DNA of 43,594 nt from contig CABMII010000010.1 in NCBI GenBank assembly GCA_902386255.1, positions 1 to 43,594 on the forward strand, in the 5' to 3' direction. Source of the stretch: an uncultured archaeon (GTDB lineage Archaea > Halobacteriota > Methanosarcinia > Methanosarcinales > Methanoperedenaceae). This document shows, in pieces, positions 2,904 to 8,290 of this stretch (position 1 is its first letter; each line of letters begins with the position of its first letter). The notes under the pieces were generated by a model. It made no database searches. It was given only the letters and a program-made list of their open reading frames with translations, and was not told the DNA's origin. Made by a program: the position numbers and the translations under genes.

Positions 2904-3107
2904 ATGACAGAAAAGATAACCAAGTCCAGCAAGCTAAATGAAATAATAACAAAATATCCTGCAACTCGGGATGTATTTATCAAACATGGTATGCCAAAAT
3001 ACGCAGGTAGGCTGCCTTCGGAGAATCTTGAATTCTTCTGTAGGATGCACAGGGTGAACATCGAGCAATTACTTGATGAACTGAACAAAGCGGCAGGGCT
3101 GTCTTAA
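2904..3107 (+). CDS. DUF1858-type small protein
   Basis: A 67-residue protein with the DUF1858 pattern: LNEIITKYPATRDVFIKHGM followed by a helix and the tail VNIEQLLDELNKA. The pair of cysteines often seen after the GM turn in this family is not present. I chose the ATG at 2904 over the GTG 15 bases upstream because GGAGG sits six bases before it. Only 24 bp separate it from the next gene, so the two probably form an operon. DUF1858 proteins often accompany hybrid-cluster proteins or NO-related membrane proteins; the function here is inferred from that context only. Confidence 0.75.
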   Translation: MTEKITKSSKLNEIITKYPATRDVFIKHGMPKYAGRLPSENLEFFCRMHRVNIEQLLDELNKAAGLS

Positions 3108-3131
3108 CGAAGAAGGCACGAAGAGGAAAGT

Positions 3132-3533
3132 ATGGAAATACCTCTGAAATTTGCCTGGGCAAGCCTTTTCTACCTGGTGATTGGGAGCACCCTTGGGTTA
3201 ATAATGGTGATAAATTCATCACCGCTGACACCCGCTCATGCCCACCTGCTGCTTTTAGGATTTGTATCGATGATGATATTTGGCGTCGGGTATCATTTGC
3301 TGCCTGTGTTTGCAGGTACCGACCTCTACAGTATCCGCCTGGCAGAGCTGCATTTCTGGCTTCAGAACATCGGGCTTGTCGGGCTTGCGTTCACGATGCC
3401 CTACAGATATACAGGCGAAGACTACAGGCTGGGCACCATCTTATTCGGGGCGATATCGCTTCTGGCGATATATATTTTTGTCTATAATACGGCGCGGTCA
3501 CTCATCCCACCAAAAGAGGAAAAGAAAAGCTGA
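3132..3533 (+). CDS. Small four-TM protein resembling a heme-copper oxidase subunit I / NnrS fragment
   Basis: A 133-residue membrane protein with about four TM segments. Histidines H36, H38, H55 and H74 lie in the pattern PAHAHLLLLGF, GYHLLPVF, ELHFWLQNIG. This resembles the short proteins annotated as cbb3-type oxidase subunit I-like, or part of NnrS. It may bind heme or metal in the membrane; no electron partner is evident. It follows the DUF1858 gene and converges with the ferredoxin gene two bases away. Together with the neighbouring CODH-like protein this suggests a role in NO or hydroxylamine stress, which is inference. Confidence 0.7.
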   Translation: MEIPLKFAWASLFYLVIGSTLGLIMVINSSPLTPAHAHLLLLGFVSMMIFGVGYHLLPVFAGTDLYSIRLAELHFWLQNIGLVGLAFTMPYRYTGEDYRLGTILFGAISLLAIYIFVYNTARSLIPPKEEKKS

Positions 3534-3535
3534 AT

Positions 3536-3754
3536 TTACCCGATATGAATTACCTGAACAGGGCATAACTGCACAGCTCTTCGTATCAGGTCTCCGAGCT
3601 GTTCGGGTGCCTCTCCCCTACCAATGCCTGTCCTGTATTTTTTGATTACCTGACTGTGGGTATCGTCTGGATTCTGTTCAAAGAATTCCGGGCATGTATT
3701 CCAGCATGCTCCGCAACTGATACAACCATCACGGTCTATGCTAATACTAAGCAT
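3536..3754 (-). CDS. Single-cluster ferredoxin
   Basis: A 72-residue ferredoxin: C11, C14 and C17 plus C64 (in QLCPVQ) can ligate one [4Fe-4S] cluster, and C21 before Pro is an extra cysteine. The acidic insert between the motifs is like that of other archaeal one-cluster ferredoxins. It is too small to be a CooF-type multi-cluster partner but lies directly downstream of the CODH-like gene on the same strand, 100 bp away. It is a plausible electron carrier for that protein. Confidence 0.85.
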   Translation of the reverse strand: MLSISIDRDGCISCGACWNTCPEFFEQNPDDTHSQVIKKYRTGIGRGEAPEQLGDLIRRAVQLCPVQVIHIG

Positions 3755-3856: not shown

Positions 3857-5734
3857 TTAAGCCGGCAGTCCCAGCGCTGCCCTTTTCTTCATTATGTGCG
3901 ATTCGATGCCATTAGCGGCCGCCACCATATCGGTTTCCACGGCAAGCTTGCCGCCGGTCAAACCTTCTACGTCCTGCGTAAGGAGCTTCACAAGGCGCGG
4001 CGCTCCTCCGACCGGCGGCAGCGGCGCAACATGGGTATAGAGGCCGAAAGCCACTGCAAATATGCCATCTATGGTCGCCTTTTGTTCCATGTATGTGGGT
4101 GCGGTTACTGCTACCGGCAAAGCTGACGGGTCAACGCCAAGTGCATCAGCGACCGCAGTAACGAGAAGTGTTATTCTTCCCGTATCGGTACATGTGCCAA
4201 AACTCAATACCGGCGGGATTTTAAGCAGTTCACATACGGCTTTAAGGCCAGGACCTGCTTCCTCTTTTGCCTCAAGCGTGGTGAGACCTCCGACCTGGAG
4301 AGCTGCATTTCCGCATCCTGCGCTGATGACAAGTATATCGCGCTTGATAAGTTCCCTTGCTATCTTCAATGTGTTGACATCCTGGCCTCCGTCCCGAAGC
4401 GTTGTGCAGCTCACAAGCGCAACTACTCCTTTGAGAGTTCCTTTCTTGATGACATCAAGCAATGGGTCAAGCGAGCCGCCAAGCGCCCCAAGACATGCTT
4501 CGGTCGAGAACCCGAGAATGGATTTCTGTTTCCTGCCTGACGGATTTGTAGGTTTTCCTTTTCGTTTCTTGAAATTCTCTATTGCCATATCGATAAGCTT
4601 TTGCGCCTGGGAAGCTGCTTCTTCAGGTTTGTATACAATCTGTCCTTTCATTCCAGGGACATTGACAAGTTTTGAAACAGAAACGAGGAGCGTATTGTAT
4701 TTCTCCTGGTATTCAGCCATCGCAGGAGGCGAACAGTTCATATCCATGGCAAAAACATCTATGCCGCCTGTTGCAAGCGCGGGTTCGATGGCAAGCCAGT
4801 TTCCGGTCAGGCCCACGAATACATTATCTGTTGCAAACCTCTGCACAAGTTCCTGCCCTGTTTCGATGGAGCCTATGATGTGAAGACCCTTTGCTCCGGC
4901 GTGTTTAGCCTTATCCTGGTTTTTTGCTTCATGGGCTGCCTTAATGAGGGCGACGCCGATGAAAGGTTCATGACCGTTCACCACAACATTCACATACGAG
5001 GGGTCGATTATTCCTATGTCAACGTCAACGCTGTGGGGCGATGGCGTCCCGAACAGCGCATCCTGCCCGAGTTCAAGCGGAATCTGGGCGCCATATATGC
5101 AAGCAATCCCAAGTCGCAGGGCTTTCTTTGCAAGAGAGACATAATCTCCGTCGATATTGGTCTGGGAACTTGAAACCGCATCCATGACCTCATGGACAGG
5201 ACCGCCGGGCAGGATTCCCAATTTCCGCCACAGTTCAATCCTTGATTTAGGGGCAAAGAAGAGAACATTGGCAAGCTCGTCATCCGAATCCGCATTTATT
5301 CCTGCAAGCATGGCATCCGAAACTGCAAGAGCAAGTTCTTTTGTGCTTTTATCTGTTTTTATCCCGAGCTTCCCTGCAAGGCTTCGGAGTTTTGTCTCGT
5401 CTTTGATCTGGAAAGGGGTTTTTCCAAGTGCTGTTGCCTTCAGCGTCTTTGCAACTTCTTTGGCATGGAAGGTATAGGTCGAGGTACCCATGGTGTTAAG
5501 GAAGAGCAGGTTCCTCATTGCCATACCGTCCGCATCTATGCCGCATACGCCGCGTTCCGCCCCGGGTTTTATCCTGCACGGGCCATTGCTGCAAAGCTGG
5601 CAGCTTATGCCCTGTTCACAGAATGAACAGCGTTTCCCCTGTGCATTGAACCGGTCAAATGTATTCGTCATCTCATCTTTTTTCAGTATATTATACTGTT
5701 CTTTTACTGATTGGTGTGCGCTAATAGTTTCCAT
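3857..5734 (-). CDS. CooS-family (CODH-like) protein lacking a canonical C-cluster cysteine
   Basis: A 625-residue protein with the full CooS scaffold. B-cluster cysteines C45, C48, C53 and C64 are present. The D-cluster motif is CX2C (C36, C39), with Ser44 where CX7C enzymes have Cys. C-cluster ligands found: H255 (NGHEP), C334 (DMNC), C443 (SCTT), C474 (AGCGN), C515 (GTCTD), and the conserved K552. The ligand usually in a GICCTG motif is absent: the segment reads GSIETG (288-293), and there is no cysteine between H255 and C334. The proton-tunnel histidines, spaced by three, read Y87, H90, E93, K96. A deviant CooS-V of Carboxydothermus lacking a cysteine of this motif holds an Fe-S-O hybrid cluster and acts on hydroxylamine, not CO. 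True CO dehydrogenase activity is therefore doubtful. Confidence 0.88.
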   Translation of the reverse strand: METISAHQSVKEQYNILKKDEMTNTFDRFNAQGKRCSFCEQGISCQLCSNGPCRIKPGAERGVCGIDADGMAMRNLLFLNTMGTSTYTFHAKEVAKTLKATALGKTPFQIKDETKLRSLAGKLGIKTDKSTKELALAVSDAMLAGINADSDDELANVLFFAPKSRIELWRKLGILPGGPVHEVMDAVSSSQTNIDGDYVSLAKKALRLGIACIYGAQIPLELGQDALFGTPSPHSVDVDIGIIDPSYVNVVVNGHEPFIGVALIKAAHEAKNQDKAKHAGAKGLHIIGSIETGQELVQRFATDNVFVGLTGNWLAIEPALATGGIDVFAMDMNCSPPAMAEYQEKYNTLLVSVSKLVNVPGMKGQIVYKPEEAASQAQKLIDMAIENFKKRKGKPTNPSGRKQKSILGFSTEACLGALGGSLDPLLDVIKKGTLKGVVALVSCTTLRDGGQDVNTLKIARELIKRDILVISAGCGNAALQVGGLTTLEAKEEAGPGLKAVCELLKIPPVLSFGTCTDTGRITLLVTAVADALGVDPSALPVAVTAPTYMEQKATIDGIFAVAFGLYTHVAPLPPVGGAPRLVKLLTQDVEGLTGGKLAVETDMVAAANGIESHIMKKRAALGLPA

Positions 5735-7531: not shown

Positions 7532-8290
7532 ATGGGTGTAAGGGATTTTGCCGGAGGGCTTGTTGTTCACGGGGCCGCCGGAGCAGCGGGTCTTGCTGTT
7601 GTTTACAAGATATGGCAGGAGGAGAAGCGCAAAGGCCTGAAAGAGAGTCCGGCGGTAAGTCTTTCGGTTAGTCCCGGTTGGCTCACATTATCCATTCTTT
7701 TGTTATGGGTTGGATGGTTCGGGTTCAATCCGGGCAGCGTGCTGGCATTCAATAACGAGGCAACTGTCGTGGTGTTAACCACTTTCCTTGCGGCAGCATC
7801 TGCTTTTCTCTCAACGATGTTCTTCAAATACCTGATCGATAAGAAGAATCCGGGACTGCCTTATGCAGCAAACGGTATCCTGATCGGTTTGATTATAATA
7901 ACTCCCCTTGCTGGCTTCGTAAGTCCGGTCAGTTCTGTTATTCTCGGACTTCTTGGAGGACCGCTATACCTTGCTGGTGAGAAATGGTTCGGACGATATA
8001 AGTGGTTCTCCGATCCTGTGAGTCTGTTTCCCGGGCATTTGCTTGGCGGCGTCTTCGGAGTGGCAATGATTGCGTTCTTTACTCAAAATGATTTTGCAGC
8101 GGCTTCGGGTAATTCAAATCTACCGAATGGATTGCTGTTTGGAGGAGGAATTGCTGCGGTGCAGCAGCTTGGACTGGAAATGCTCGCTATTGTAGTCGTT
8201 CTGGTCGTGGTGTTCGTAATCTCGTACTTATCTATGTGGCTAATTGGATTGGTGATGCATGGGATAACAACAGATTACGGGAAAGAATAG
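7532..8290 (+). pseudogene. 5'-truncated ammonium transporter (Amt)
   Basis: The product begins inside the Amt fold at DFAGGLVVH, the segment carrying the first of the two pore histidines, and continues to a normal C-terminus; a second histidine lies in FPGHLLGGVFG. Roughly the first 150 residues (about five TM segments) are missing. In-frame reading upstream meets a stop at 7502, and no Amt sequence is seen between this point and the AMP phosphorylase gene. No PII gene follows. It is most likely a remnant left by a deletion or rearrangement, although the ORF itself of 252 codons is undamaged. Confidence 0.75.

Follow-up and report, generated by a model that had tools for sequence, protein, structure and literature searches.

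The gene at positions 3857..5734 (minus strand) of the 43,594-nucleotide stretch analyzed here (the window), which belongs to a Methanoperedenaceae genome of the anaerobic methanotrophic archaea (ANME-2d), encodes a 625-amino-acid CooS protein that is, with high confidence, a non-canonical protein of the CooS-V type, known from Carboxydothermus hydrogenoformans and assigned to structural group D-1 of the carbon monoxide (CO) dehydrogenases (CODHs). The full CooS scaffold recognized in a preliminary description of this DNA is indeed present at these coordinates, since the protein reached 793.6 bits with the CooS equivalog model TIGR01702 (cut-off 478); with the hybrid cluster protein (HCP) model TIGR01703 it stayed at 30.7 bits (cut-off 360.8). 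The best PDB match by sequence was CooS-V (7b7q) with 812 bits, followed by a second-best match with 420 bits, and the two proteins are 60% identical from end to end. The nearest relatives among 84,980 searched genomes were found in metagenome-assembled genomes (MAGs) of Candidatus Methanoperedens, at no more than 95% identity. The preliminary description had treated the protein as an individual oddity. It is, instead, an ordinary member of a described group (D-1 of Inoue 2019, PMC6344411; CooS-V, PMC9311411), and not a new deviation.

Residues were assigned by aligning the window CooS with CODH-II and CooS-V (coordinates in this paragraph are on the minus strand). The motif GSIETG (residues 288-293; 4856..4873) and the absence of any cysteine between H255 and C334, both pointed out before, were borne out by this alignment. 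The first C-cluster cysteine is absent, as had been claimed, but it is not simply lost: it is replaced by Glu291 (4862-4864), which recurs in relatives and aligns with Cys295 of CODH-II and with E295 of CooS-V, a ligand of the hybrid cluster. A second glutamate, E550, lies at the position of CODH-II H561. All eight listed hybrid-cluster contacts of CooS-V are conserved, namely H255 (CooS-V H259; 4970..4972), E291 (E295), N333 and C334 (N337 and C338; 4733..4738), C443 (C449; 4406..4408), C474 (C480; 4313..4315), C515 (C521, the persulfide cysteine; 4190..4192) and E550 (E556), the last within E550-Q-K552 (4079..4087), where K552 is the acid-base lysine. A missing ligand supplied from elsewhere in the fold was looked for and not found; Glu291 and Glu550 fill the positions. 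The B-cluster cysteines C45, C48, C53 and C64 (5543..5602) are in place, and the CX2C motif C36-X2-C39 (5618..5629) corresponds to a type III D-cluster, probably a [2Fe-2S] bridge by analogy with CooS-V (PMC9311411). Two features of a functional Ni,Fe-CODH are thus altered: the complete C-cluster motif of one His and five Cys has Glu as its first Cys, and the acid-base His93 is replaced by Y87 (5474..5476).

The tunnel residues Y87, H90, E93 and K96 were correctly read in the preliminary description and align with H93, H96, H99 and H102 of CODH-II, but not all of them are informative as evidence. E93 and K96 carry little weight: D/E also occurs at positions 93 and 96 in two solved CODHs, ChCODH-IV and Thermococcus AM4 CODH; only Y87 distinguishes clade D from these two enzymes in the tunnel. 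Across the 80 nearest loci, E291, N333, E550 and K552 were present in all 80, Y87 in every locus covering that position, and the D-cluster and B-cluster cysteines in every row covering them; the hybrid-cluster contacts were invariant across 82 D-1 rows. Since these residues are kept and the ratio of nonsynonymous to synonymous substitution (dN/dS) comes to about 0.05 in comparison with the 95%-identical relative, the active-site pattern reflects neither chance nor assembly error, and a pseudogene was likewise rejected.

The window CooS matched the D-1 signature of Inoue 2019 (PMC6344411, Table 2) in every column: type III D-cluster, then H, E, C, C, C, C, Y and K, and no E/F clusters. It has Glu for the first C-cluster Cys, the Gly to Cys41 type III D-cluster (C36, C39), Tyr at the acid-base His (Y87), the retained Lys (K552) and an HCP-like Glu two residues before it (E550). 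When the active-site columns were left out of the tree, 42 Glu291 proteins including CooS-V formed one branch with a support value of 100, with the D-4 group neighboring and the canonical CODHs apart; this tree was made by a quick method with SH-aLRT support only and was flagged for some long branches that meet. The window protein is therefore placed with CooS-V and not among the active CODHs. The AlphaFold (AF2) model (pLDDT 90, pTM 0.92) retrieved CooS-V first in Foldseek (TM 0.98, 1.3-1.5 Å) and canonical CODHs thereafter (TM 0.95). Compared with CooS-V (7b7q, 7b9a; PMC9311411), the hybrid-cluster ligands, the B-cluster and type III D-cluster cysteines and the Y/H/E/K tunnel are the same; unlike CooS-V, the window CooS is archaeal and is flanked by a ferredoxin gene. 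It shares a Pfam family with HCP, and the catalytic-site residues of D-1 proteins have been reported to be identical to those of HCP (PMC6344411), but its CODH-type length, B-cluster motif and D-cluster set it apart.

The D-4 CooS of Methanoperedens (L116:7324-9252, from strain BLZ2; locus and genome handles are ours) forms the sister branch at about 50% identity and has Y87, N333 and the HCP-like Glu550 in common with the window CooS, whereas it retains the first Cys of the C-cluster (SMCT) and its D-cluster is of type II. The same combination of Y87, Asn333 and Glu550 with the first Cys kept was seen in eight other Methanoperedens loci, and D-4 proteins are possible intermediates between Ni-CODHs and hybrid-cluster forms. 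Some D-4 genes adjoin a DUF2114 gene, to which BLZ2-like genomes add a gene of the NarG type. While PMC6344411 names D-4 in Methanoperedens, D-1 was far commoner in the genomes searched here.

The ligand set, the 60% identity, the fold and the tree branch uphold, by homology, the claim of the preliminary description that this is a deviant CooS resembling CooS-V and no enzyme of CO. CooS-V, produced under conditions that yield active CODH-II, contained no detectable Ni and neither oxidized CO nor reduced CO2, and the C295E variant of CODH-II was Ni-deficient and unable to oxidize CO (PMC9311411). By homology, it is well supported that the window CooS would not act on CO. Two findings on clade D agree with the overall reading given next: the clade includes the CooS of Archaeoglobus fulgidus (PMC13056359), whose gene does not respond to CO (PMC4543118), and knocking out a clade-D gene in Clostridium autoethanogenum changed little (PMC13056359, PMC4895105). 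We consider it moderately probable, as the best explanation of the whole, that the protein is a CooS-V-type Ni-free hybrid-cluster homodimer acting as a ferredoxin-fed reductase that removes small oxidants; for the detoxifying reductase function taken by itself, we lean only slightly towards acceptance. In such an enzyme, the homodimeric CODH scaffold would hold a Ni-free Fe-S-O hybrid cluster in place of the Ni-Fe C-cluster and, by homology with the solved CooS-V, would bind no Ni and turn over neither CO nor CO2. The active site of CooS-V opens only in the reduced state, with the cluster rearranging reversibly with redox state (PMC9311411); a corresponding redox switch at the C515 persulfide would open the site only upon reduction, so that the enzyme would work as a reductase. 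Judging from the gene context of relatives, ferredoxin would feed low-potential electrons, and the substrates removed would be small oxidants dangerous to a strict anaerobe, such as nitric oxide (NO), hydroxylamine and possibly peroxide. D-1 CooS may thereby fill the niche of HCP, which was absent from the PF03063 matches in 34 Methanoperedenaceae genomes.

This gene context was found in relatives of the window CooS. In marine ANME-2/-3, the D-1 gene closes a same-strand cassette encoding a YgaP-like transmembrane protein, a rubrerythrin, an FprA-type flavodiiron protein and a ferredoxin-thioredoxin-reductase-like protein. The cassette occurs in nine distinct loci, some of which end at contig edges so that not every gene was seen; one ANME locus (L030) was without it. 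L028 (Methanosarcinaceae/ANME-3) and L031/L033 (ANME-2) have the five cassette genes in common and nothing else in their 8 kb flanks, and their rubrerythrins are only 43% identical. In seven distinct loci, some of them ANME, D-1 CooS adjoins an octaheme HAO-like cytochrome (8 CxxCH; best PDB match 6h5l, 1e-34), whose L031 copy has a detectable PGF-CTERM surface anchor; L031 carries both this gene and the flavodiiron cassette. As a control, 27 canonical CooS loci gave a weak flavodiiron match in one and an HAO match in none, raw counts that, like those behind the cassette and HAO tallies, include duplicates as MAGs occur in more than one collection. No report of a flavodiiron-rubrerythrin-CooS link in ANME was found in the literature searched, and the flavodiiron/rubrerythrin and HAO-like neighbors are the first recurrent gene context found for D-1 proteins. 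Where the HAO-like cytochrome is adjacent, hydroxylamine may be the more specific candidate substrate. A rather unlikely extension is that the D-1 CooS of ANME stands in for the missing HCP and, where the cytochrome is present, makes up with it a pathway divided between two compartments: the surface-anchored cytochrome would produce hydroxylamine, and reduction to ammonium would be the task of the cytosolic CooS, as an archaeal equivalent of the reverse-HURM pathway proposed for Nautilia (PMC3701875).

Several observations weigh against a role in oxidant removal. The window gene has neither of the two recurrent cassettes, and none of these stress genes adjoined the Methanosarcina and bacterial D-1 loci examined; the Methanosarcina neighbors (P-type ATPase, formyltransferase, lactate racemase-like and others) were uninformative. 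An HAO-like ortholog was looked for in the window genome and not found, and an HAO partner there was rejected. Nitrate respiration as a source of N-oxides in this organism was rejected as well, as no NrfA passed the cut-off and the only NarG candidate was a NarG-like Mo protein far below it. The N-oxide substrate suggested in the preliminary description is therefore partly supported: it is plausible from the gene context of relatives, but the window genome offers no adjacent N-oxide gene, NarG, NrfA or HAO-like protein. CooS-V does reduce hydroxylamine, but at a very low rate (0.13 per s; 20 per M per s); its catalytic reduction of NO was not detected (PMC9311411). Further points of this kind are that a review credits CooS1F (probably a D-1 protein) and CooS2 of Methanosarcina acetivorans with assisting CO removal at high pressure (PMC4652020) and that the D-1 genes of BLZ2 appear to be CO-induced, according to our deduction from PMC13079737.

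The last two points also speak for the view that window-type CooS oxidizes CO, or reduces CO2, in its own host, where native maturation or conditions would install an active cluster. BLZ2 oxidizes CO fast and five of its CooS genes rise under CO/NO3 (PMC13079737). The same study describes five chromosomal CooS with 31.3-97.6% identity; two CooS of low identity and a different structural group were hardly expressed, and CO oxidation was tightly linked to five other CooS, two of which lie on a mobile element. Of the CooS that we found in the BLZ2 assembly (G004), two are D-1, one is D-4 and two are canonical; the canonical pair share 98.4% identity across 313 residues, against 30-34% with the remaining ones. 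By deduction, the one assignment compatible with these data is that the silent pair (CooS_3, CooS_5) is canonical, which would make the five highly expressed, CO-linked proteins three D-1 and two D-4. The D-4 CooS and CdhA of the same genome can, however, account for CO oxidation, every D-1 protein has other residues in place of the exo-iron Cys ligand and the acid-base His, and the inactivity of CooS-V and of the C295E variant argues in the same direction, which leaves CO turnover by window-type CooS very unlikely.

It is unlikely, but less so, that the protein senses redox state, NO or CO or has a regulatory role, its restructuring cluster giving a signal without substrate turnover. The very low turnover of CooS-V beside its reversible cluster rearrangement (PMC9311411) would suit such a role, solitary D-1 genes are common, and redox-sensing or regulatory roles have been proposed for clades C and D (PMC13056359). 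A signaling partner that is fused or regularly linked was not seen, though: a helix-turn-helix gene precedes D-1 only in BLZ2-type and sister-genus loci and a histidine kinase stands beside it in one Methanosarcinaceae locus. The flavodiiron and rubrerythrin partners are catalytic enzymes. From the comparison with E. coli HCP, the authors of PMC9311411 concluded that the physiological function may be another one, and the protein could be imagined as a low-potential reductase whose small substrate is unrelated, neither N- nor O-oxidant; the gene context in the examined loci points to no other substrate, and we regard this as quite unlikely.

The window CooS gene is solitary except for a downstream ferredoxin gene on the same strand (3536..3754, minus), which lies 102 nt away and encodes a 72-amino-acid single-cluster ferredoxin. 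This ferredoxin is of the same family as that of the BLZ2-type D-1 cassette and is a possible electron donor to the CooS; a conserved ferredoxin-CooS operon was rejected, as relatives, among them the 95%-identical one, did not show the pairing. Flavodiiron homologs occur elsewhere in the window genome (96% complete), whose only PF03063 proteins are this CooS and one CdhA. On the plus strand, a 133-amino-acid cytochrome-oxidase-subunit-I-like protein (2906-3533; profile positions 307-398 of 436) follows an ORF of about 67 amino acids and would be a miniature heme-copper-oxidase-like protein or a remnant. The ammonium transporter gene at 7532-8290 (plus strand) matches only the C-terminal part of its family and is probably truncated; the upstream frames do not hold the N-terminal half.

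D-1 CooS was present in 25 of the 34 Methanoperedenaceae genomes, a count including one fragment that is 95% identical to the window CooS and does not reach position 291. In 13 of the 34, including the window genome, D-1 was the only CooS type found (8 of the 13 are at least 90% complete), and the presence of cooS in these genomes therefore says nothing on CO oxidation. Elsewhere, clade D CooS and HCP have been reported to co-occur most strongly (PMC13056359), in contrast to the lack of HCP among the PF03063 matches of these 34 genomes. Further archaeal D-1 CooS were seen in L041 (a Hydrothermarchaeota MAG), L047, L055, L077 and similar loci. Genome G148, apparently M. acetivorans C2A, holds one D-1 and one canonical CooS; the D-1 gene (CX2C, SIE, Glu550) belongs to locus L173 (1.56-1.58 Mb). 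CooS1F is probably this D-1 gene, to judge from locus numbering.

A correct reading of D-1 proteins is of importance: no physiological role has been established for the group, while databases label the window enzyme a CO dehydrogenase, and genes of this type are tallied as such and taken as evidence that these archaea burn CO. The CO oxidation of BLZ2 stands as measured; our deduction questions which enzyme performs it. The CO-oxidation reading of CooS in Hydrothermarchaeota (PMC6946796) should be rechecked against the active-site motif. If D-1 CooS does stand in for HCP as in the extension above, much of the cooS expression described as CO-linked in Methanoperedens would belong to nitrosative stress or nitrogen metabolism, and with M. 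acetivorans a tractable host for the D-1 group appears to exist, which makes its role testable.
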